A stretch of 35,078 nucleotides of DNA, from IMG/VR virus record IMGVR_UViG_3300030389_002571, positions 1-35,078 of that record; one strand, written 5' to 3'. The stretch's first letter is position 1; each line of letters starts with the position of its first letter. This stretch comes from a virus. Below, piece after piece: positions 13,262 to 35,040 of the stretch. The notes beneath the pieces are model-generated. The model was given only the letters and a program-made list of their open reading frames with translations. It searched no databases and was not told where the DNA came from. The position numbers and the translations under genes are program-made.

Positions 13262-14437
13262 TTAATCTGAGTCTTCAACAGTAAAGCCATAGACAGCCAG
13301 CAGTGCAAGCATATCAGCATTTGATACAAATCCATCTTGATTAAAGTCCCCTAAAAGATCATCTCCAATAACTCCAAAGTTTTGCAAAAAGTCAAGGAGA
13401 TCCTGTGCACTTATACTACCATCATCATTAAGGTCAAAAATAGGATCAGCAAGATTTATTGAAACCCCTTCATCTGAGGCATCAGTGTCGGCATCAGAAT
13501 CAATATCAGAGTCGACATCAGGATCGGGATCAGGGTCAGGAGGAGGTGGCGGAGTATAAGGACATCCAAAATTTTGTATTGGGATATTAAGGAATTGTAA
13601 CACTTGGCCAGTGCCTGAAACGGAACCATAATTTGTTCCAGCAATATCGCCAAAAACATTTTCATACGGAACAGAAAATACAGGAATCTCGTAAACATTA
13701 CCTAGAGTATCTTGAATGTACCAAGTTGTTTCTGCTCCAACATTAGGAAATTCTATTTCAGGTATAGGAGGATAAATAGCATTTGTCGAACCAATAGGCC
13801 CTGACTGTTGCTGTAAAAGCTCTGTCAAAGGTTCTTGAAGGGCAAAAATAAAAGAAGCATTTGTTATTCCATTAGGAGAGTTTTCTTCTGTTACATAGTC
13901 ACAGAAATTAAATACCGTAGCGTTTGCAATTGCATTTTGTATTGCGAGTTCTTCATCTATTTCAAACTCAATCTCTTGATCTTGATCAATTGTACTATCA
14001 CCCCCCAAAACAGCCTGATCAACCTCAATAACAGCTTCTTCTTCTGGGTTTGTTTTAACCCTAATCACATCACCTTTGACAAAACCATTCCTGTCAAAGT
14101 TTAACTCAGGTGTTTGAAGTATTAATCTGTATGTATTTGTTATTGCGCTGTATGCAAAAACACTGTGGTTGTTATTTTCATTCCAAACAAAAAAGTACAC
14201 AACACCTAAAGTTTCATCCTTTGTGCTGCCTATAACTACATTCTCCCCTGCTGGGAATCCAGCTGACTCATGTGCTACTAAAACTTCATTAGTCCCTTTA
14301 ATATTTTTAAGAACTCCAGCTCCACCCTCCTCATCACCTGTAACGGTAATGTTGAGAGCATCAAGCATTTCTGTTGGAGCCATTGCTCTAAAATCCTTAG
14401 AAGTTTGTAGTATGCGTGGTGTTAACTTATCTATCAT
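13262..14437 (-). CDS. Tail protein with C-terminal dockerin-like calcium loops (391 aa)
   Basis: The N-terminal part starts MIDKLTPRILQTSKDFRAM and continues with segments about knowing and displaying values (VVYFFVWNENNNHSVFAY), the kind of beta strand set that begins the tail stabilization protein of crAss-like phages. After a Pro/Asp-rich linker (296-323) come two loops, DLNDDGSISAQD (335-346) and DFNQDGFVSNAD (364-375). Both fit the D-x-N/D-x-D-G-x-I/V-x-x-x-D pattern of type I dockerin repeats, which bind calcium and pair with cohesin partners. The ATG overlaps the upstream stop (ATGA). The 1807-residue gene follows after 11 bases and appears to continue the same fold. Dockerin identity is by motif only; EF-hand-like calcium loops of another family are the alternative. 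Confidence 0.88.
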   Translation of the reverse strand: MIDKLTPRILQTSKDFRAMAPTEMLDALNITVTGDEEGGAGVLKNIKGTNEVLVAHESAGFPAGENVVIGSTKDETLGVVYFFVWNENNNHSVFAYSAITNTYRLILQTPELNFDRNGFVKGDVIRVKTNPEEEAVIEVDQAVLGGDSTIDQDQEIEFEIDEELAIQNAIANATVFNFCDYVTEENSPNGITNASFIFALQEPLTELLQQQSGPIGSTNAIYPPIPEIEFPNVGAETTWYIQDTLGNVYEIPVFSVPYENVFGDIAGTNYGSVSGTGQVLQFLNIPIQNFGCPYTPPPPPDPDPDPDVDSDIDSDADTDASDEGVSINLADPIFDLNDDGSISAQDLLDFLQNFGVIGDDLLGDFNQDGFVSNADMLALLAVYGFTVEDSD

Positions 14438-22248: not shown

Positions 22249-22578
22249 TTATTTCTTTTTCTTCTTTTTACCTCCACCAGCTCTAATCTTAGCCGCTTCC
22301 TTTTTTCCGAAAGCACTTTTCACACGAGCCATCGCCCATGCATGTTGAGATGTCTTAGGTCTGTTGCCAGAGCTCATATAAGCAGCAAGGCCTCGCTTGT
22401 ATACTTCTTTCTCCGCAGCATCAAGCCCAGACATACCGCCGCCTTTCTTGCCTCCTTTCTTAAATACTCCTCTTCCTTTAAGAATGTCAGCTTGAGTTAT
22501 CTTCCCGTCTTTATTAAGATCTGGAAACTTCTTACCACCTTTTTTGTACTCTGGTTTCTTTTTCTTTTTTACCTTCAT
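22249..22578 (-). CDS. Lys-rich small protein with EF-hand-like loop (109 aa)
   Basis: The protein is flanked by Lys runs at both ends (residues 3-8 and the last six). It has FPDLNKDGKITQADILKG (about 18-35), whose loop DLNKDGKITQAD (20-31) matches the acidic calcium-type loop of EF-hand or dockerin repeats. The second half contains EKEVYKRGLAAYMSSG and TSQHAWAMARVKSAF, a region I recall in small proteins of marine phages near capsid genes. The strong positive charge suggests nucleic-acid contact or packaging inside the head. Its start overlaps the stop of the 48-residue gene by four bases (ATGA). It is the last gene of the overlapping chain, just before the TATATTTG box of the next transcript. 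Function unknown. Confidence 0.82.
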   Translation of the reverse strand: MKVKKKKKPEYKKGGKKFPDLNKDGKITQADILKGRGVFKKGGKKGGGMSGLDAAEKEVYKRGLAAYMSSGNRPKTSQHAWAMARVKSAFGKKEAAKIRAGGGKKKKKK

Positions 22579-22721: not shown

Positions 22722-22909
22722 GACTTTGGGTGGTCTGCCATCTTGAACTTAGCTTTAGCTACAGCTCCAGGATGCGGTTTATAATCACCTTTCATGAGGT
22801 AGTACCTACCAGATTCCTCCATCCAGTGAAAACCTTTAGGCGGATCAATAGATTTTGTTTTATTTACAATAGTAAAATTTTTAGTTTGTTTTCCTTTTAC
22901 TGTTTTCAT
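22718..22909 (-). CDS. Small basic protein, KGFHWM type (63 aa)
   Basis: The ATG at 22909 is chosen over a GTG at 22915 because it gives a one-base TAATG overlap with the upstream stop, the pattern used throughout this chain. The protein contains KGFHWMEESGRYYLMKGDYK and a short basic tail AKAKFKMADH. I recall a similar 'H-W-M-x-x-G-x-x-Y-x-L-M' pattern in small proteins of marine and SAR11 phages, but with no known function. It is basic, with one predicted strand pair and no signal peptide. It is part of a run of four small basic proteins after the membrane and periplasmic genes. Function unknown. Confidence 0.78.
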   Translation of the reverse strand: MKTVKGKQTKNFTIVNKTKSIDPPKGFHWMEESGRYYLMKGDYKPHPGAVAKAKFKMADHPKS

Positions 22910-23223
22910 TACCACTTTACTTTATTAGCCCACCATGCAGCAGACATTTTACCTTTTGCTATATTTTTACGATGCCTTGCTTTAAATGATTTGCGTTTAG
23001 CTTTCATTCTTGCAGACTCACCAGACTTTGCTTTTCCTGCAGTGCCTTTTAACTGCCCTACCTTTTTCCCCTGTTGTCCAAACCTTATTAATTTAATTTT
23101 ATCCCCTTCCTTAGCTACAACTACGTGAGACTTTGTTGGGTGGTTAGGAGTACGCTTAGCTTTATTGTAGCCAGATACACCAGCTCTAGCCAACCTAGGA
23201 TCTTTTTTCTTTTTTGCTTTCAT
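22909..23223 (-). CDS. Small basic conserved marine-virus protein (104 aa)
   Basis: The 104-residue, Lys/Arg-rich protein contains AGVSGYNKAKRTPNHPTKSH, then VVVAKEGDKIKLIRFGQQG, then SFKARHRKNIAKGKMSAAWW ending ANKVKW. I recognise this as a widespread family in marine phages and some large marine eukaryotic viruses, without a known function that I can name. Its arrangement (basic arms around a small beta strand region) is compatible with nucleic-acid contact or a packaging role. The start at 23223 overlaps the upstream stop by one base (TAATG). It is the longest of the four small basic proteins of this block. Confidence 0.85.
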   Translation of the reverse strand: MKAKKKKDPRLARAGVSGYNKAKRTPNHPTKSHVVVAKEGDKIKLIRFGQQGKKVGQLKGTAGKAKSGESARMKAKRKSFKARHRKNIAKGKMSAAWWANKVKW

Positions 23224-23561
23224 TAGAACGCACTCATTATAATTTCATCAACCGCCTCTTGTACATCATCTTGTGTAGCTTCAAGCTGCATCATAATGTT
23301 TGCTTGGAATCTTTCTACCTCTTCTCCGTCATTAAATACAATAACTGTTGGGACCACAACGATCTTATGTTCTTTTTGCAGGTCTGGTTCAGCAGCTATG
23401 TCTACACGACTTCCCTTACAATCACTTAAGTCGTCAATCCAATCTACACTATTAGCAGAGTTAAAACTTGCGTTAAACTCAACAACACATACTCCTGAAT
23501 CTGGTATACCCATACCAAAAGACGTGACCGCAAATAAACATATGTAGATTAAATTCTTCAC
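23223..23561 (-). CDS. Periplasmic thioredoxin-fold protein lacking CxxC (112 aa)
   Basis: The start is a GTG at 23561 with a GTGA overlap. An N-terminal signal-like segment (about 1-18) is followed by VCVVEFNASF (24-33) in the place where thioredoxins have a strand leading to WCGPC. Here the site reads SFNSANSV, so both active cysteines are missing. Later VVVPTVIVFNDGEEVERF (68-85) matches the thioredoxin strand with the cis-proline (Pro71) and the following 'f-x-d/n-G-x-x-v' turn. The fold is thus supported, but redox activity is not expected. A cysteine remains at 25 and 48, which are not in CxxC. Export to the periplasm is likely. Its role could be a binding or chaperone-like part of the envelope chain around it. 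Fold by motif; function inferred. Confidence 0.8.
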   Translation of the reverse strand: MKNLIYICLFAVTSFGMGIPDSGVCVVEFNASFNSANSVDWIDDLSDCKGSRVDIAAEPDLQKEHKIVVVPTVIVFNDGEEVERFQANIMMQLEATQDDVQEAVDEIIMSAF

Positions 23562-23842
23562 TGTAGCTTATCTATTTTTTCTTCGATGCGGTCAAGATCT
23601 TCTTTAAGTTCTGACACATCTTCTTGCGTAGTCATAATAGTCTGTCTCACTAATTGATCCTTCATATCAAACTCCATACGTGTAATCTCTGGATCTGCTG
23701 GTTCTGGTAATTCTTTAGCTAAAGCTATATCAGCCTGTAAAGTAAAGTACATGCCTATTAAGGCTGCAAGGCCAGCCGCACCCATCCCTATTGTTTTTAG
23801 GTCTAGCGTTACTTTAGTATCTTCTCCAATTTGTTTAGCCAT
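23558..23842 (-). CDS. Single-span membrane protein with coiled coil (94 aa)
   Basis: I choose the ATG at 23842, which overlaps the upstream stop by one base (TAATG), rather than the farther start at 23896, which would overlap the barrel gene by 55 bases. The protein has a soluble N-terminus with DTKVTLDLKT, one transmembrane segment (about 16-38; MGAAGLAALIGMYF in it) and a C-terminal charged helix (about 66-94; SELKEDLDRIEEKIDKLQ), likely coiled-coil. That arrangement is shared by small phage membrane proteins such as spanin or holin-accessory proteins, but also by others. It has no lipobox and no signal peptidase site. Its place between a barrel and a periplasmic protein suggests an envelope role. 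Lysis is possible but not shown. Confidence 0.75.
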   Translation of the reverse strand: MAKQIGEDTKVTLDLKTIGMGAAGLAALIGMYFTLQADIALAKELPEPADPEITRMEFDMKDQLVRQTIMTTQEDVSELKEDLDRIEEKIDKLQ

Positions 23843-24915
23843 TACAATATCACATAATTTAATCCAACAGAGAAATCGTGCCATTCTCGATTCCAATACT
23901 TATTGTATTTACCTTCTAAGAATACACCAAGACTCTTATTTATTCTCCATCCAAAGATAAGGCCTGCACCGTAATCTAACCATTGCCCTCCTTCGGTAGT
24001 CTCAAAGTAAGAATACTCATCGTCTGTTTTAAGATGATAAGGCATTACGCTTACCCAGTTATGCATCCAAAACTCCTTAGAGTACTTGTAGTAATCATAT
24101 CCTACAACTAAAGAGTAGTTCCAAACATTCGGGAGCTCACTTCTTTTTCTAGCAACATAGTCGTCAATAACCTGAGGTATAACAACCTGCTCCCACACAT
24201 CAACGCTATTGGCTACAAGTGTACCATCAGGCGCAAAATATTCTCCACCTTGCACATCTACAGTATAACCTTCTTGTAAGGCAAGACTTGTGTAATGTAT
24301 ATTATTATTTGATAACACCCACTCTTCTAAAGGATTGTATCCGTATGGTTCAGATATACGCTGAGCCACTCCAATATTAAAACTAAGACGATCATTTACA
24401 TTGAGTCTCAATCTTTGAGATCCTTCAAAATATTCTACATCAGCAAAACCATCTTGCAAGTATTCAGCTTTAGCTATCCAGTTTTTAGCTACATAACGCA
24501 AGAAGTAGTCTTGATCTAAAAAATTTCTACCCTGCTGTCTACGCCAGTCAGCTTCAAACAAAAACTCAAATCCTTTTACTCTACCTATAGTAGCAGCATC
24601 ACTGTATGATTTTTCTGTACCATCATAGAATACGTTAGCTCTGTTTTCATAACCAAACCTAGCGATCTTACGAACACCTGCTGTAAACGAATAATCAAAA
24701 GGCGTTTCTAATACATCCGTTTGCAATCCATTAGTAACAGAATAAATATTATCATCAGCTACAGAATTACCCCCACTAAAAGCTGTATAGAATGTAGCAA
24801 ACTTAAATGTCTTTTTTAGAGTCTGTCCTTTTACTTCTAATGATGTACCTAGCATAAACACTAGGATCATTATAGCAATATAAATTATTGGAGTAAGATC
24901 TCTTTTATGCGTCAT
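23842..24915 (-). CDS. Outer-membrane beta-barrel-like protein (357 aa)
   Basis: The ATG at 24915 overlaps the stop of the 49-residue gene by one base (TGATG); a GTG at 24918 is the alternative. Residues about 10-32 form a signal-peptide-like hydrophobic stretch ending near VKGQ. The rest alternates polar and aromatic residues in short strands, such as GFEFLFEADWRRQ, LRLNVNDRLSFNIGVAQRI, YSLVVGYDYYKYSKEFWMHN and DYGAGLIFGWRINKSLGVFL, the pattern of an outer-membrane barrel with Tyr/Trp girdles. It ends DFSVGLNYVIL, close to a barrel end though without a final Phe. It follows the secreted T9SS protein in the same chain, so both are aimed at the envelope. A phage-encoded outer-membrane protein could change phage adsorption; this is inference. 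Confidence 0.8.
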   Translation of the reverse strand: MTHKRDLTPIIYIAIMILVFMLGTSLEVKGQTLKKTFKFATFYTAFSGGNSVADDNIYSVTNGLQTDVLETPFDYSFTAGVRKIARFGYENRANVFYDGTEKSYSDAATIGRVKGFEFLFEADWRRQQGRNFLDQDYFLRYVAKNWIAKAEYLQDGFADVEYFEGSQRLRLNVNDRLSFNIGVAQRISEPYGYNPLEEWVLSNNNIHYTSLALQEGYTVDVQGGEYFAPDGTLVANSVDVWEQVVIPQVIDDYVARKRSELPNVWNYSLVVGYDYYKYSKEFWMHNWVSVMPYHLKTDDEYSYFETTEGGQWLDYGAGLIFGWRINKSLGVFLEGKYNKYWNREWHDFSVGLNYVIL

Positions 24916-25064
24916 CACACTTCAAATCCAAGGTTTAATATCATAAATCTGAACTTACTTCCAAAGCTAACTTCTAATATCGTAAGCGTTCCTAGTCTAA
25001 AAGAAAGCTCATACACTTCTTTTTTGTTGCCAGCTTTCCAGCTATTTATCCAATTAATCTTCAT
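24915..25064 (-). CDS. Small unknown protein between T9SS and barrel genes (49 aa)
   Basis: I found this by reading the bases. An ATG at 25064 opens a 49-codon frame: MKINWINSWKAGNKKEVYEL, then SFRLGTLTILEVSFGSKFRF, then MILNLGFEV and TGA at 24915-24917. The ATG overlaps the stop of the secreted protein (ATGA), and the stop overlaps the ATG of the barrel gene (TGATG). The protein has two short strands (SFRLGTLTILEVSF and FRFMILNLGFEV) and no signal peptide or membrane segment. It lies exactly in the overlap pattern shared by the whole chain, which supports it as a real gene. Function unknown. Confidence 0.7.
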   Translation of the reverse strand: MKINWINSWKAGNKKEVYELSFRLGTLTILEVSFGSKFRFMILNLGFEV

Positions 25065-27535
25065 GACTTAATAATTTTCTTTTTTATAATTCTAGAGTTA
25101 TGTTGTATTACCATTTCATACACACCATTGGAAAGATGTGAGAGGTCTATAGTTTTATTAGAAGTTTGTATAACAGATTGACCTAAATGGTTATACAAAG
25201 ATATCACTGCTGTTGATGGAGCTTGTATGTATAGTAATCCGCTTGTTGGGTTTGGGTATACATTATATATATCATCTATATCGTACACACCTTGCGGCCA
25301 TCCTTGCTCACAGTACGAGTACAAATCCATACACGTTTCATCCCATGCAACCTCGCAGCAGTATGGGTCAACATCTATGATCCATGCGTAACACCCGTCA
25401 TTCAACCAGTAAGGTTCTCCAGGCCCACCTATACAACCTGCATCATACAAACAAGCTTCTTCGTCAGAAGTATTAGCCAACTCATTGTAATTGAATGCAT
25501 CAGGGTCCATACAGTCAACTAAAACTTCAATACACGAACCGTTGTCTGTATTAGCCAGCTCATCATAATTAAGAGCATCAGGATCAGTACAACCATAAAT
25601 GTAAGGTATACAGCTAAAATCTTCTGTGTTAGCGGATGAGTTATAGTTAAGCATGCTAGGATCAGTGCAGCCATAGATGTAAGGCTCACAATTAGAAGGG
25701 TCGTACTCAGCATTTGCAGCGGGATTATAATTAAACATGCTGTTATCGGTGCACCCATAAACAAAAGGCTCGCATTCCCCATCATCTATATTTGCATTAG
25801 GATCATAATTGTAAGCTAATGGATCCATGCAACCATATATATAAGGTATACAGCTATCATCATCTACATTTGCAGATGGCAAGTAATTAAATGCTAGTGG
25901 GTTCATACATCCTAAAACTACAGGTATGCAACCCTCATTATCTACGTTTGCATCTTCATTGTAGTTAAACGCCTCCTCATCCATACAGCCGAACACCGCT
26001 ACTGTTTCACAGCTACCATCATCATAGTCAGCCTCATACCCCTGAGTATAATACTCTAGATAGCCAGCCTGTAAACATCCAGCCTGGTAATAACAGCTAC
26101 CATCTTCTGTGTTAACATTGCTATCATAGTTTTGCGCAGCTTCGTCTGTACATCCGTATGTGTAAGGCTCGCAGTAGTTACCGCATCTTAAGTAAGGGGT
26201 ATACACTTCATCAGGATCTATTGGATTTAACCAAGGATTAGTTCCCTTTTCAAAAACTATGTTACCGTTAGGACTTATTAGTTTAAATCCACATTGAGAT
26301 ACATCAGTGCTTGTGCCACCCTCACCAAAGAAGCTACCAAACTGAACTTCGTAAAACTTAAACTCTACGTGTGTTTGAGAACTTACTGTTATATCATAGA
26401 AGGCTTGCTCTTCTGTGCAGGTAAACGCACCAATAGGTTCACCATCTTGCACAACACCTAGATAAGATCCATCCCAGCCGTCACCACCTCCATCAAATAA
26501 CATGAGGGTATATTCACACTCAGGGATGTAGTCCATGATATTTGCTTCTGGATCATAGTTAAATGCATTCTCGTTAAGGCATCCTGGAACAGCAGTAGTT
26601 ACACATAAACTAGAATCATTGTTTGTAGCAAGAGAGTTAAACTCTAAGTAGTCTGGATCTAAACAACCAAATGGCGGATTGTCTGGAGGACATGGGTTTA
26701 GTAGGTTAGGTTGACTGATAGCTTCATATCCGTAGTCAGGGTTTTGACCTTCAAATGGCAATATGCTGTATATTGTGTTACCACACTCCGTGTACACTAA
26801 AACATCTCCATCAGTAAATCCTCCTGTTGTAGATCCTGCGAGTCCGTCTCCAAACGTGTCATATATGTTAAATGTAAATTCTACACCAAGGGGTATGCAA
26901 TATTCTGTTGTCACAGTAAGTCCCTCTGTCTGGTAAAAACCTACTTCTTCGCTAGCCAATACTATTGGTATACTATCCGTAGTAACTATTTCCCAACTTG
27001 TCTCCCACTGAGAATATGTATCTGCTGTAATGCTCACATAAACTTTTTGTGTAAACAAATCTCCACACTCTGATACTTCGCCGTACTGACAAGATTCTCC
27101 AAACTCACTTTCTATACCAGCAAAAGGGTTGTAGTTTGTAGCTAAAGAATCTAAACAACCTATACCGCAGTTAGGGTTTTCAATAATTAGTGTGTCCATA
27201 ATCTCACCAGGAGATTCTACTATAAAATAATATTCATCATTTGATACAGGTGAAGATGGAACACCTCCATAAAAACTATTAAAAAACCATTGACCGTATG
27301 GCACAAACTGCAGATTGTCTAAGTCGTCGCCTCTGTAAAATCCTATTGGTTCACAACCAGGACCAGAAGGCTCCCACATAACTTGAAGCTGTCCCTGGTT
27401 TGGCGCAAATGGAAAACAATCAATCTGACCTTGAAGGTCCTGAACGCCACAAGGCAAAGGAGGTAAGCTATCAGTAGGTGGTTGAGCAAAAACTAAACAC
27501 GGTAAAATAAAAAGCGTAAATAAAAGTTTCTTCAT
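25061..27535 (-). CDS. Secreted repeat protein with T9SS C-terminal sorting domain (824 aa)
   Basis: The signal peptide is clear (residues 1-17, cleavage after LVFA). Two beta-rich regions follow, with NIYDTFGDGLAG (223-234) and MLFDGGGDGWDGSYLG (345-360), a style seen in surface proteins of marine flavobacteria. About twelve cysteine repeats of the form G-C-x-D/N-x-x-A-x-N-Y-x-P-x-A-N-x-x-D-x-x-C are present, nine of them in a near-tandem block (461-699). The end (about 750-824) is a type A T9SS sorting domain: VYPNPTSG (759-766), then SLYNHLGQSV and LSNGVYEMVI and a Lys-rich tail. Known: this domain directs proteins through the Bacteroidota type IX system to the cell surface, where it is usually removed. 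A TATCTTTG box lies 4 bases before the ATG. The gene heads the envelope chain. A surface role in an infected cell is inferred. Confidence 0.92.
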   Translation of the reverse strand: MKKLLFTLFILPCLVFAQPPTDSLPPLPCGVQDLQGQIDCFPFAPNQGQLQVMWEPSGPGCEPIGFYRGDDLDNLQFVPYGQWFFNSFYGGVPSSPVSNDEYYFIVESPGEIMDTLIIENPNCGIGCLDSLATNYNPFAGIESEFGESCQYGEVSECGDLFTQKVYVSITADTYSQWETSWEIVTTDSIPIVLASEEVGFYQTEGLTVTTEYCIPLGVEFTFNIYDTFGDGLAGSTTGGFTDGDVLVYTECGNTIYSILPFEGQNPDYGYEAISQPNLLNPCPPDNPPFGCLDPDYLEFNSLATNNDSSLCVTTAVPGCLNENAFNYDPEANIMDYIPECEYTLMLFDGGGDGWDGSYLGVVQDGEPIGAFTCTEEQAFYDITVSSQTHVEFKFYEVQFGSFFGEGGTSTDVSQCGFKLISPNGNIVFEKGTNPWLNPIDPDEVYTPYLRCGNYCEPYTYGCTDEAAQNYDSNVNTEDGSCYYQAGCLQAGYLEYYTQGYEADYDDGSCETVAVFGCMDEEAFNYNEDANVDNEGCIPVVLGCMNPLAFNYLPSANVDDDSCIPYIYGCMDPLAYNYDPNANIDDGECEPFVYGCTDNSMFNYNPAANAEYDPSNCEPYIYGCTDPSMLNYNSSANTEDFSCIPYIYGCTDPDALNYDELANTDNGSCIEVLVDCMDPDAFNYNELANTSDEEACLYDAGCIGGPGEPYWLNDGCYAWIIDVDPYCCEVAWDETCMDLYSYCEQGWPQGVYDIDDIYNVYPNPTSGLLYIQAPSTAVISLYNHLGQSVIQTSNKTIDLSHLSNGVYEMVIQHNSRIIKKKIIKS
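25439..26155 (-). repeat. Cysteine repeat array coding for nine units in the T9SS protein
   Basis: Nine units of about 26 codons encode the form G/D-C-x-D/N-x-x-A/M-x-N-Y-x-x-x-A-N-x-x-D-x-x-C. At DNA level the copies have diverged, but share stretches for the start of each unit, such as codons for YGC and NY. It is a coding repeat and explains local self-similarity in this part of the gene. Confidence 0.85.
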
Positions 27536-27554: not shown

Positions 27555-28688
27555 TTACGGAAGATATTTTTCACCTAAAAGTCTGCCAAGAGCTTTTGAC
27601 TTTTGATCCCCTATGTCTTTATTAAACGCACCTAATGCAGCTACATAAACTCCTTTACCGTCAGCAAAGTTCTTATTATGAAGAAGAGAAGAACTAAAAA
27701 TAAAAGAGCCTACATACTGTTTTTGTCTACCAAATCCATCCATATCTACAGTAAATGATATGGGATTTATTCCAACTCCCGCTGAATCATCTGTCCCTCC
27801 TGATATAAACCCAACCTGACTCCCAATGCCATTATATATAAACACATCGCCTGATGTTGCTAATTTTCTAACTACAAAAACTTCTGGAGTACCTGAAGTA
27901 AAAGGTTCTGTTATATCAAGTTTAAGATCAAAAGTTTCACCTGGATCTGAAGCAGCTCCTCCAGTGGTTCCTGTTGCTGTGTCTTTATCTACAATAGTAA
28001 ATTTATTTACACCTCCATCACTCCAATTTGCTACGCTAGGATCACTGGTAGGAGTTTGAAAAGACATAACATAACCGTGATGAGTTTCTGAATTAACATC
28101 TACTCCAGATCCAATCGGAGGGTTAAGCCCGTCCGAGTTAGATACATCAATAAAAGTTTCTATAATTGTAGGTGGCTTACTAGGCATAAAGCCATCTTCA
28201 TAAGCTGCCACTACATAAAGAGTCATATCATTCTGAGCAGAGTATCTGTTAGATAAACTTAAAAAGTGAGAAGATGAAGGGTTGCCCTCGCTGCCTTGAG
28301 CTTGATCGTCTTCAAAATATATAGCTCCTGTAGTTGTAAAAGGATTAGAAGCGTCGTCGGTATCGTAGATAGGATCTCTAGAAGCATCACCACCACTTAC
28401 AGCATCATGAGTGGAGCCTTTTGTTCCGTTATTAGTCCATGTAGACACAGAGCCTCCATTGGTAAATCCTTGTCCATCAGCCTGAAAAGCTATCTCTGCA
28501 TCTGCAAGTATAGTGTTTAATTCAAAAGCATCATTAGGTGAAGATAATGTAAATCCCTGAGGTTTCTTTACTTCAAGTGTAGTAACACCTCTTTCTAAAG
28601 AAGATGTAAGGGTTGCTAAAATATCAGTGCTAGACGTAAATGATAGATCTACATTTTTTCTTTTAGGTGCTGTAAAGTTTATAGCCAT
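27555..28688 (-). CDS. Concanavalin-like beta-rich virion protein (377 aa)
   Basis: After about 50 residues of linker, a region with QADGQGFTNGGSVSTWTNNG (about 70-90) and a later aromatic-rich strand set with NDMTLYVVAAYEDG look like the concanavalin/LamG-type jelly roll, a fold that carries carbohydrate-binding or structural roles in many phage proteins. The last part, SKALGRLLGEKYLP, ends in a helix. No signal peptide. The start overlaps the upstream stop by one base (TAATG), so it is made with the 133-residue protein. Placed between the portal and the secreted T9SS protein, it could be a head fibre, a collar protein or a receptor-binding part. Fold by eye; role inferred, and the lectin assignment is not certain. 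Confidence 0.8.
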   Translation of the reverse strand: MAINFTAPKRKNVDLSFTSSTDILATLTSSLERGVTTLEVKKPQGFTLSSPNDAFELNTILADAEIAFQADGQGFTNGGSVSTWTNNGTKGSTHDAVSGGDASRDPIYDTDDASNPFTTTGAIYFEDDQAQGSEGNPSSSHFLSLSNRYSAQNDMTLYVVAAYEDGFMPSKPPTIIETFIDVSNSDGLNPPIGSGVDVNSETHHGYVMSFQTPTSDPSVANWSDGGVNKFTIVDKDTATGTTGGAASDPGETFDLKLDITEPFTSGTPEVFVVRKLATSGDVFIYNGIGSQVGFISGGTDDSAGVGINPISFTVDMDGFGRQKQYVGSFIFSSSLLHNKNFADGKGVYVAALGAFNKDIGDQKSKALGRLLGEKYLP

Positions 28689-31595: not shown

Positions 31596-33731
31596 TTAGT
31601 AAGCCTTAAATCTTCTAAGAAAAACTTTTTCAGAGTAATCAGACTTTTTAATTTTAGGTTTTACTTTTTGAGCTGCAAGTAGACACAATCCTGAACTTAT
31701 GGTCAAGTCAAACTTTGTTCTATTTGTTATTTGATATCCAATCCAATCCTCTAAAGTTTTATTAAAATACATCTTACCCATCTCTCCAGTATCGTAATTA
31801 ATACCAACATGATTATGTATATAAGATTCAATCGCATGAGCGTGAGATTGAATAACATCCTGAGAGTTAGAAGGTATACCTTTTGTTTTTGATTTTATTG
31901 TTGATGAATTAGCAGCTAATAAATGCCTGGGTCTATCCATTAAATAACCATCATAACCTCTTGATTCAAAGTGTCTTGCAATACCATACTTATTGTTTTC
32001 AATTAATATAGGGTACCCGTAAAAAACAGCAGCCATAAGAACATCTTCATAAAAGATTTTTGCTAGAGGTGGGCGGGATGCATACTCAAGTACAAATGTA
32101 TTTGATGGGTACTCCATATGAAATTTATTGTACAGGTGTAGCGCTCCCTTAGACCCTCGTCCATCGACGGTGGCATCAAGGTCGTAAGAGTCGACCCCGC
32201 CTACTCCTAGCTCTGCATTAGGTGCAATCTTTTTTCCTTTACTTAATAGCTTTTGATTTCTTAATTCTGCTGGAGGCATCCAAGCAACTCTGAACCTTCC
32301 ATTAGGATCTGGAGTAAAGATTACCTCAGTATCTTTTTCTCCTCCCTTCCAATGAAAGTTGCCAGTTACTATAGGATTGGGAAATAGATCGTCGTTAAAC
32401 TGTATCTGCTCGTATATTTTTCCTATATTAAATAAGCTGCCCTGTATGCTGTCTCTAAAAGCTTCATCTGTTGTAAAGGGAAACTGTCTAACTATTTCAT
32501 TCAACTCAGAAGCGTCGTGCTTGAGACTGTCCCTCTCATTTTTTAAATACTGCTTAGCTCCAATAGTTATCATTTCTCCATCTAGTCCTTTGACTTCATG
32601 TTCTGGAGTATTAACTACAGGCATGCCGTACCTATCAAAAAAACCCTCTAGTGATTCTTGAGCTGGTATAAATAATCTATAAAGTCCAGTTCTAGTCCTC
32701 CCATTCGCATTCCTCTCCAAGGGATTCGAATCCTTCCACAGATCCTTGTATTCTTTTCCACCCTTGTCCATTGGATTTACGGTGCTTCCTACTAGAGCTT
32801 TTCCGACGATTTTTCTTCCGACGATCAAACAAGTCCTCTGAATCCTCCAAGCGTCTCTTATGTCTGTTGGTTTTTCCCATTTTCCTGCTTCATCTAAATA
32901 CAACATGTGTAGCTTTTCACCGTCGTATGCGTTGTTAGTTGTGTTTTTCCAATTAATAACTGTGTTTAGCGCTTCACCTACTTGAGATGTTTTATTGTTT
33001 TTAGTAATGCGCTTTGATGGTTCTCTAAAAGCTAACTCCATTCTTGGATTCGTTGTACCATCTTGTATGGGTTTAAAGAAGAAAGGATAGTTTCTAAACA
33101 TATAAACTACCTTCTTCATAAAAATATTCTCCTGAGCGTCCTTACCAGTCTTTGACTGTATGCCCATAAGCTTGTCTTTAACCTGCGTAGCTTCATCCAC
33201 AAGAACAGAACTACAGATATTAGTGTACCCAGAACGGCGACACTTAGTATATAGCTGACCGATACAACGAGAATCAAACTCGCACGCAGCCATGTGTAAA
33301 AATATTTCACGTTGAAAATTTAAAAAGTATGGATATCCTATGTCTAATTTAGTCCATTGAAGCATCATGTAATGCCTCCCCGTAATATATGTAGGTGAAC
33401 CGTTGTTATAAAACCAAAAACCCTCACGCCTACGCCTAAACTCTTCCTCGATATATGGACGAAACTTTTCTCTAAACTGTCTTGGCATTTCCGCCCACTC
33501 ATCCATAGATTTAATACGAGACAGTTCCTTGGGCATAGGTGTCCTCTTCCACACCTGCATGTCGTTTGATTTTTTATATCCGATAATGTCTTTCTTCGGC
33601 GGCCTTTTTGGAAGGCAAATGAGTAACCCACCGAGTTCGATAAGCTCACCTTCCGTACCGTTGGGACAAATCTTAACAGCAGGTTCTTCATATTCTTCTA
33701 TGTCTAATAAATTATTCAAAGTCCTCTTCAC
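31596..33731 (-). CDS. terL: Terminase large subunit (711 aa)
   Basis: The ATPase part shows a Walker-A-like loop TKCRRSGYTN (162-171), atypical because Arg-Arg replaces the usual Gly-Lys end, as in several crAss-like terminases I recall. Walker B is MLYLDEA (276-282), and a coupling motif GSTVN lies at 315-319. The nuclease part has GGVDSYDLDATVDG (511-524; Asp514 and Asp519) and ILIENN (575-580; Glu578), fitting the RNase H-type nuclease that cuts the DNA at headful or site. Length 711 is large but within the range of this group. The start overlaps the HNH gene end by 20 bases. The next gene (portal) follows after 51 bases. The protein packages the genome with the portal; the ATPase fold and nuclease are well supported. 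Confidence 0.93.
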   Translation of the reverse strand: MKRTLNNLLDIEEYEEPAVKICPNGTEGELIELGGLLICLPKRPPKKDIIGYKKSNDMQVWKRTPMPKELSRIKSMDEWAEMPRQFREKFRPYIEEEFRRRREGFWFYNNGSPTYITGRHYMMLQWTKLDIGYPYFLNFQREIFLHMAACEFDSRCIGQLYTKCRRSGYTNICSSVLVDEATQVKDKLMGIQSKTGKDAQENIFMKKVVYMFRNYPFFFKPIQDGTTNPRMELAFREPSKRITKNNKTSQVGEALNTVINWKNTTNNAYDGEKLHMLYLDEAGKWEKPTDIRDAWRIQRTCLIVGRKIVGKALVGSTVNPMDKGGKEYKDLWKDSNPLERNANGRTRTGLYRLFIPAQESLEGFFDRYGMPVVNTPEHEVKGLDGEMITIGAKQYLKNERDSLKHDASELNEIVRQFPFTTDEAFRDSIQGSLFNIGKIYEQIQFNDDLFPNPIVTGNFHWKGGEKDTEVIFTPDPNGRFRVAWMPPAELRNQKLLSKGKKIAPNAELGVGGVDSYDLDATVDGRGSKGALHLYNKFHMEYPSNTFVLEYASRPPLAKIFYEDVLMAAVFYGYPILIENNKYGIARHFESRGYDGYLMDRPRHLLAANSSTIKSKTKGIPSNSQDVIQSHAHAIESYIHNHVGINYDTGEMGKMYFNKTLEDWIGYQITNRTKFDLTISSGLCLLAAQKVKPKIKKSDYSEKVFLRRFKAY

Positions 33732-34182
33732 TAAAGTTTAAAAACAATTCTAGTTGTTCTACTATAGGAACGCAATCTTCTTCTATTATACTTTCAGCAT
33801 ATTTACCAGCACCCCACTCTCCAGATCTTCTTTCATCATAATGGTGTATAGAGTGGCAGTTTGCACAAATAACGTCGCACTTTTCTACTTCAGCCTTTAC
33901 AGTTTTAAAAATATACCCTTTACCTATAAGCTGAGCAACACTAGATTTTTTTTCGTCTCTATCTCTGTGGTGTAACTGTAAACACCTTTTATCTTTTATT
34001 CCACACTCACAACAGCCTTTTTGTTCTTTATACTTATCTACCCACTCGTATATCTTTCTTTTTTGCTCTGCTACATTTTTAGCTCTGCAAGGTATACAAG
34101 ACTTAAAATATGTATTATTATGAGCCCTATAATAAAACTCAGTTAAAGGCCTTACTCTTTGACAAGTGTGACATCGTTTCAT
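33712..34182 (-). CDS. HNH endonuclease with N-terminal zinc ribbon (156 aa)
   Basis: Residues 4, 7, 29 and 32 form two CxxC pairs of a zinc ribbon, as in many HNH homing or packaging enzymes. The HNH part has a second CxxC pair (57 and 60), then LQLHHRDRD (68-76; the catalytic His pair 71-72), then ICANCHSIHH (105-114) with CxxC and His residues at 110, 113 and 114. The order fits a complete HNH domain, so activity is expected. HNH enzymes beside terminases are known to help cut packaged DNA in some phages; others are homing enzymes that spread into neighbours. Its start overlaps the small gene before it by four bases (ATGA) and its end overlaps the terminase start by 20 bases. Which role applies here is not shown. 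Confidence 0.88.
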   Translation of the reverse strand: MKRCHTCQRVRPLTEFYYRAHNNTYFKSCIPCRAKNVAEQKRKIYEWVDKYKEQKGCCECGIKDKRCLQLHHRDRDEKKSSVAQLIGKGYIFKTVKAEVEKCDVICANCHSIHHYDERRSGEWGAGKYAESIIEEDCVPIVEQLELFLNFSEEDFE

Positions 34183-34472
34183 TTTGAGAATCTTTCAGCA
34201 AAGCCTCCGCTATAGTCTTTTGACCCCTCTATTTCTCCTGTTGTTTTTAAATCTTTAATCATCTGTTCAAGTCTTTGCCTTTCTATGATTAACTCTTTAC
34301 AATCAGTTGCTGTTTGTTTTATAGACTGAAGCTCAGCCTTTCGTGCCGAACCATTAATTTCTGGATCCACAGGCTTTTTAACCTCATCAATCATATTATT
34401 AATAGCCGCCTCCATGCTTTTCATAAGTCTTTCGGCAGCACTAATAGTTGTAAATTTATTCTTCGATGACAT
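34179..34472 (-). CDS. Small helical protein before the terminase genes (97 aa)
   Basis: The protein is mostly helical, with one charged coiled-coil-like stretch (about 45-75) containing SIKQTATDCKELIIERQRLE and a short polar tail. No helix-turn-helix motif or zinc site is visible. Position just upstream of the HNH and large terminase genes is the usual place of a small terminase, but the length (97) is at the low end and no DNA-binding part is seen, so I leave this open. Its start overlaps the GroES-like gene by 17 bases and its stop overlaps the HNH start by four (ATGA), which fits close coupling. Confidence 0.8.
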   Translation of the reverse strand: MSSKNKFTTISAAERLMKSMEAAINNMIDEVKKPVDPEINGSARKAELQSIKQTATDCKELIIERQRLEQMIKDLKTTGEIEGSKDYSGGFAERFSK

Positions 34473-35040
34473 ACAAGAAGTCTTCTGATCTTGTTCGGTA
34501 ATATTCTACGTCGTCTATTTTTATTCTATAGTCTCTGTTTTTACCAATACCGACAACGTCCCCTACTTTAACTCCGAGATAATCGCAGTTACTACAAGCA
34601 TGAGTAATCCTACCTTGTGTTGGGTTTTCTTTTTTATACTCAACAACCTCTATAACATCTGAAGTTAAATTATCTTCTTGATCAACAGGCTGAAGAAGAC
34701 ACCAAGTAGATAGTGTATTTATCTCTCCAGTTTCCTTACACTTATAAGCAAAAGCTTGAGAGTTCATAGCAACTTCAGGATCATAGAGTACACTATAGCA
34801 ATCTTCTAATCCTGGTATAGGTTTACCACCTTGAACTACAACATGGTGATGAAAATAAAGAGTATCACCTTCTTTTACTGGGGTTTCAAACTTAAGAGGT
34901 GTTGCAACAACTTCCCCACCCATTACTCTATGACGAAATTCGTCATACTTAGTTTCCATGTAGATCTCAGATTCTCCGATCTTCACGGTATCATTAAACT
35001 TCTTAGGAAGCTTAATGATAAAATTATACATACCTTTCAT
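34456..35040 (-). CDS. GroES-like co-chaperonin, two-domain form (194 aa)
   Basis: The C-terminal part contains GVKVGDVVGIGKNRDYRIKI (156-175) followed by DDVEYYRTRSEDFLYVIEE, which matches the end of GroES: VKVGD-I/V, a Lys-rich turn, ID-x-E-x, S-x-x-D-x-L-x-x-I/V-E. The N-terminal part has RHRVMGGEVVATPLKFETPV and KEGDTLYFHHHVV, the same 'G-E-V-x-A ... V-K-E-G-D-x-x-x-F' order, so the protein may hold two GroES-type folds (about 5-95 and 112-194). Phage T4 gp31 is the known precedent: a phage co-chaperonin that works with host GroEL to fold the capsid protein. A mobile loop is not clearly seen in the sequence. The gene sits before the packaging genes and its end overlaps the next start by 17 bases. 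Confidence 0.82.
   Translation of the reverse strand: MKGMYNFIIKLPKKFNDTVKIGESEIYMETKYDEFRHRVMGGEVVATPLKFETPVKEGDTLYFHHHVVVQGGKPIPGLEDCYSVLYDPEVAMNSQAFAYKCKETGEINTLSTWCLLQPVDQEDNLTSDVIEVVEYKKENPTQGRITHACSNCDYLGVKVGDVVGIGKNRDYRIKIDDVEYYRTRSEDFLYVIEE

Follow-up and report, generated by a model that had tools for sequence, protein, structure and literature searches.

A phage gene for a protein with a complete type A sorting domain of the type IX secretion system (T9SS) forms part of a conserved operon of overlapping envelope genes, and the encoded protein exchanges modules between phages and is under purifying selection. The gene lies in the window, the whole 35,078-nt stretch of DNA analysed here (IMG/VR record IMGVR_UViG_3300030389_002571, positions 1 to 35,078), to which all coordinates refer. 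We tentatively propose, with a confidence just short of even, that the overlapping block is an undescribed mobile envelope-remodelling or exit system of uncultivated Bacteroidota phages, to which one clade has added a T9SS-using surface protein, referred to as the cargo. The functional unit reaches beyond the cargo gene at 25061-27535, down to position 23223, with the following features:

25061-27535 (-): T9SS cargo gene, ATG start, 824 aa, with signal peptide (residues 1-17), exchangeable head (~18-460), Cys-repeat stalk (~461-750) and type A sorting domain (759-823)
25064-25261 (-): T9SS type A sorting domain (TIGR04183/PF18962), by profile and fold matches
24915-25064 (-): small gene, 49 aa (MKINWINSW...), overlapping the cargo stop by 4 bases and the barrel start by 1 base
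23842-24915 (-): outer-membrane beta-barrel protein, 357 aa, with signal sequence and ~12 strands in the model
23558-23842 (-): strongly conserved 94-aa protein with one transmembrane segment followed by a coiled coil, by sequence inspection
23223-23561 (-): thioredoxin-fold protein with signal sequence and NxxN replacing CxxC, by profile

The cargo protein and its phage

An initial annotation had described 25061-27535 as a late phage gene for a protein addressed to the host T9SS, and the 824-aa minus-strand ORF with its ATG start was found at exactly these coordinates. The proposed signal peptide and twelve Cys repeats were borne out as well: the N-terminus, MKKLLFTLFILPCLVFA followed by QPP, reads by inspection as a hydrophobic Sec signal peptide cleaved before Q18, a residue that directly follows the cleavage site and is invariant in 45 relatives, and a pattern count gave exactly twelve Cys units between residues 126 and 695. 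According to the Bacteroidetes Q-rule, mature proteins start with Gln (PMC5837995), which has also been noted for proteins of Porphyromonas phages (PMC10367356), and the signal peptides of both the cargo (Q18) and the barrel (Q31, invariant among the relatives of the barrel) obey this rule. Signal peptides, transmembrane segments and lipoboxes were assessed by visual inspection throughout.

The sorting domain at the C-terminal end exceeds the curated cut-offs of both profiles, TIGR04183 (25067-25261, E 3.9e-14, 48 bits, cut-off 23) and PF18962 (residues 759-822, profile positions 1-75 of 75, 45.2 bits, cut-off 27), and contains VYPNPTSG and LSNGVYEMVI, the two motifs from which it had originally been recognised. 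It is kept in 44 of 45 diverse relatives (TIGR04183 at E 0.01). Furthermore, the predicted structure of this C-terminal domain (CTD) is a seven-stranded Ig-like beta-sandwich (pLDDT 81-90) which matches the solved CTD of RgpB (Z 9.1, rmsd 2.0, 66 residues aligned) and 8glk_D, a CTD solved while bound to the T9SS (Z 8.8, rmsd 2.0, 69 residues), and T9SS CTD-type chains were also retrieved when solved structures were searched with the cargo sequence. Outside the CTD the model is poor (mean pLDDT 62, pTM 0.26), and no binding fold or adhesive domain was recognised in the head. The original reading as a phage gene for a T9SS-addressed protein is supported, and export of the cargo by the T9SS appears to be the well supported step, which its role is not; display on the infected cell would follow naturally from the sorting domain.

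The contig belongs to a tailed phage with relatives among the phages of Flavobacteriia. PHROG matches were obtained for TerL, portal and other virion families. Portal and capsid proteins share ~23-35% identity with their counterparts in isolated Flavobacterium elemo phages, Cellulophaga phages (Pervagoviridae, Pachyviridae) and a Maribacter phage, with two Tenacibaculum phage matches in addition for the portal. As these relatives infect Cellulophaga, Flavobacterium, Maribacter and Tenacibaculum, the host is probably T9SS-competent. Bacterial genomes gave only three matches from which a host might have been read, short contigs in bins named Maricaulis and Woesearchaeota that look like stray viral contigs; the 94-aa gene in such bins (L118, L119, L120) lies on viral-looking contigs, which are probably misbinned. 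Elsewhere in the window, a putative virion protein at 13262-14437 (-) ends in a dockerin-like calcium-loop pair, with EF-hand matches below the cut-off and an end similar to that of an M43 peptidase in L109, and a phage GroES-like co-chaperonin is encoded at 34456-35040 (-), close to an HNH endonuclease gene at 33712-34182.

With the cargo gene located between phage genes for portal and capsid and found again in ~100 viral stretches, chance or host contamination was rejected as its source. Its strand and its place between the portal and major capsid genes would fit a late gene. In the isolates that were compared, no more than two genes separate the portal gene from the scaffold-like gene and capsid gene that come after it; the window has about eleven between its portal and scaffold-like genes, the cargo among them. 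The type A sorting domain and the 94-aa protein are absent from all four isolates examined. This position within the structural region would also suit a virion or fibre protein whose CTD merely mimics a T9SS substrate, e.g., by binding the translocon during adsorption, and the same Cys repeats are present in cyanophage fibre-region proteins that lack sorting domains. We nevertheless consider such a protein very improbable: tailed phages assemble the parts of their virions in the cytoplasm, whereas the relatives of the cargo keep a cleavable Q-rule signal peptide, the cargo has no PHROG match, and it is linked to envelope genes and not to fibre genes. The cyanophage proteins with these repeats are L205:3598-5142:+ and L206:2572-4122:+, the former without a T9SS sorting domain on reading.

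The overlapping envelope block and its distribution

The initial annotation treated the cargo as a single gene, and while its T9SS address stood, the conserved, horizontally moving envelope operon and the exchange of heads had been missed. In the window, the cargo, 49-aa, barrel, 94-aa and thioredoxin-fold genes each overlap the next by a few bases, and across loci most block genes are separated by overlaps or gaps of a few bases, with a spacing of -1 base from barrel stop to coiled-coil start in 38 loci, and of -4 bases both from coiled-coil to thioredoxin-fold gene and from cargo to barrel in 15 loci each. Promoter and terminator matches were no more frequent than in shuffled sequence. Beside the operon lie genes for two small Lys/Arg-rich proteins (22249-22578 and 22909-23223, both -), and related basic proteins recur at other loci. 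The place directly upstream of the cargo is taken in the window by a 377-aa protein with no family match (27555-28688, -) and in other phages by different proteins, including a collagen-like one in L069.

The 49-aa protein has longer relatives of ~60 aa at other loci. The barrel model (~12 strands, mean pLDDT 74) retrieved only generic barrels among solved structures and one viral protein as a likely relative in BFVD (E 3.9e-25, 22% identity). The barrel has no Pfam match, and its assignment as a T9SS component (PorV, PorP/SprF) found no clear support, the fold searches giving generic barrels only and the T9SS chain 8gl6_F appearing as one among many barrels at E 5e-3. A thioredoxin fold of the last protein is suggested by PF00085 at E 6e-4, which is below the Pfam cut-off, and by a match of its family profile to solved thioredoxins (E 7e-7). 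At the CxxC site, 172 of 174 relatives carry NxxN and none carries CxxC, the register being uncertain for the first set, where HMMER aligns the site as a gap, and resting on a gap-free alignment by eye in the second (FWAKFNEAN).

The cargo adjoins the block of barrel, coiled-coil and thioredoxin-fold genes in ~85 IMG/VR stretches. Four or more phage backbones unrelated to one another are represented, as labelled from gene clusters and not from full genome classification, each with different neighbouring genes. Among 109 stretches with at least one of the four main genes, the order was cargo-barrel-coil-thioredoxin in 49 and barrel-coil-thioredoxin-cargo in 27; many others were cut by contig ends or had one gene unrecognised, and because one contig can be represented by several overlapping stretches, independent contigs are fewer. 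The contigs are metagenomic and mostly incomplete, and as loci were included for their resemblance to the window or to a single distant relative, these frequencies are not population estimates. Two scans of IMG/VR with the 94-aa protein matched 520 stretches in one set and at least 573 in the other, with some overlap between the sets and the best 80 of each being examined. Neither the barrel nor the 94-aa protein had a match in 50,697 phage records.

The core of barrel, coiled-coil and thioredoxin-fold genes is commoner than the core with cargo and also occurs without it, as in 83 loci of the second set. A search of 44 contigs from the cargo-less clade gave no type A sorting domain at any position, and therefore the core works without the cargo. 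In a barrel tree, built by a quick method with SH-aLRT support only, every one of the second set's 13 cargo-less rows falls on the same side of a branch with a support of 100, and the podovirus-backbone label must change at least five times to agree with the supported branches. Cargo-less rows inside the cargo clade are few and near contig ends, except for L103, which branches at the base of the clade. The tree and the label changes thus indicate that the core moves between phage lineages, with the cargo tied to one core clade. In four loci (L104, L109, L113, L116), a type B T9SS protein (CHU_C/TIGR04131) and an M43-family metallopeptidase gene lie on the opposite strand just after the operon, e.g., L113:8654-9559:- and L109:1846-3597:-.

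Cargo modularity and possible roles of the block

Comparing cargo proteins between loci, we found that heads are 30-40% identical across pairs while stalks are mostly 75-100% identical; among such pairs, as between L020 and L062, the first 450 residues share 29-44% and the following stalk 78-100%. The head of the window's cargo resembles that of L020 despite their different backbones. The sorting domain varies separately, since the cargo body is 94-95% shared between the window and L006 or L012 with a CTD of only ~60%, and the CTD is 95% shared with L005 from another backbone. As judged from these comparisons, the cargo is modular, with an exchangeable head, a conserved Cys stalk and an independently mosaic sorting domain. 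In pairs with the same head type, dN/dS is ~0.04-0.11, and the cargo is thus maintained by selection. CTDs can be incompatible between species (PMC11285876), so their independent variation may reflect fitting to different hosts, and the exchange of heads on a conserved stalk is what would be expected of a surface protein engaged in an arms race.

Our preferred reading, held tentatively and with slightly less than even confidence, is that the cargo is a late surface protein displayed via the host T9SS which, with its operon partners, remodels the envelope of the infected cell; it is favoured because head exchange and envelope partners fit. Late in infection, the modular cargo would be made and cross the inner membrane by Sec, and the host translocon would recognise its CTD, leaving the protein anchored on, or released from, the infected cell. 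Co-made with the outer-membrane barrel, the inner-membrane coiled-coil protein and the periplasmic thioredoxin-fold protein without redox motif, it would act with these partners on the host envelope. The head would most likely bind or cover surface molecules, so that superinfecting phages or released progeny would be kept from adsorbing to infected cells or debris. From the patterns described above we infer that the cargo is actually exported and expressed late, that the operon genes act together and that receptors are masked, the last being the most plausible, if unproven, role of the cargo.

The stalk-and-head build of the cargo could also be that of an adhesin, by which infected cells or debris would stick to particles or to each other, making the block an ecological or host-benefit cargo and not a means against adsorption. 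The Cys repeats are common to other fibre-like proteins, and some relatives carry the type B T9SS protein and M43 peptidase gene; yet no adhesive domain was recognised in the cargo, and a lytic phage gains only briefly from a benefit to its host, which leaves this explanation quite unlikely.

The neighbouring genes could point to another function, namely an apparatus for outer-membrane rupture or exit with the coiled-coil protein as i-spanin, the barrel as its partner in the outer membrane, the thioredoxin-fold protein as a periplasmic adaptor and the cargo as an accessory on the surface, weakening or releasing the outer layer. On three of four backbones a lysis gene is found next to the block or not far from it, of a different family each time (holin phrog_3427, M15 endolysin, Amidase_2), and in 50 of the 83 cargo-less loci the thioredoxin-fold gene is followed, in most cases directly, by an M15 endolysin gene. 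Moreover, the topology of the 94-aa protein, with one transmembrane segment and, on sequence inspection, a periplasmic coiled coil, is i-spanin-like, and phages of Bacteroides and Croceibacter that lack spanins have been described (PMC6139136). However, 26-34 kb separate the holin gene from the block on the window's backbone, none of the contigs checked had both a holin and an endolysin gene close to the block, and because of these distances a plain lysis cassette was given less weight. The window contains no clear lysis cassette, with no M15, holin or Amidase_2 match, and the 94-aa protein has no profile match to a spanin. The block also includes no lipoprotein partner, the mark of an o-spanin, the neighbours being the barrel and a thioredoxin-fold protein without lipobox (by inspection), and a spanin role leaves the strong conservation of the cytoplasmic tail of the 94-aa protein unexplained. 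Overall, we regard a rupture or exit apparatus, the main competing explanation, as rather unlikely and rank surface remodelling above it, its exact benefit at low certainty, because the holin is so distant on the window's backbone and holin and endolysin are never both close in the contigs checked.

Relation to known systems

To our knowledge, use of the T9SS by phages has hardly been described, and the block provides a concrete gene set for testing such use as well as outer-membrane change or breach in Bacteroidota phages. This conserved envelope block of four to five genes is common in metagenomic viruses and was not found in the phage records searched, and the almost invariant NxxN in a thioredoxin fold is a clue to a non-redox periplasmic role. 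In the literature searched, in which subscription journals are thinly covered, we found no description of the linked operon, of an NxxN thioredoxin-fold protein or of movement between backbones, and the operon may, with fair probability, represent a new system.

Phage-encoded T9SS cargo itself has already been published (PMC7468147, PMC6949934); as far as the accessible text of these reports goes, it is the operon that appears to be new. Genes with type A T9SS sorting domains were described in Cryophage (2020) and called a unique occurrence there (PMC7468147). Like the cargo described here, they vary between phage variants and were proposed to have a surface effect, but they encode an endoglucanase, a GH39 protein and a PA14 protein in variable islands, and the accessible part of that report describes no linked barrel, coiled-coil and thioredoxin-fold operon (PMC7468147). 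In gut phages (2019), T9SS sorting-domain proteins occur beside crAss-BACON ORFs (PMC6949934); these also lie near head genes and in phages with predicted Bacteroidota hosts, but carry BACON domains, with no Cys-repeat stalk or envelope operon in the accessible text (PMC6949934).

Bacteroidota T9SS type A cargo proteins, such as RgpB, NucA and FspA with their solved CTD structures, share the signal peptide and the C-terminal Ig-like domain with the cargo, but are chromosomal, whereas the gene described here is phage-borne and has an exchanged head. The thioredoxin-fold protein resembles thioredoxins in its profile match to the fold and differs from them in being exported and in carrying NxxN instead of CxxC. 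Finally, two-component Rz/Rz1 spanins combine a small inner-membrane protein having a periplasmic coiled coil, which the 94-aa protein resembles on sequence inspection, with an overlapping gene for an outer-membrane partner; in the block, however, this partner is a beta-barrel and not a lipoprotein, a thioredoxin-fold protein and a T9SS cargo are added, and on the window's backbone the whole set lies distant from the holin.
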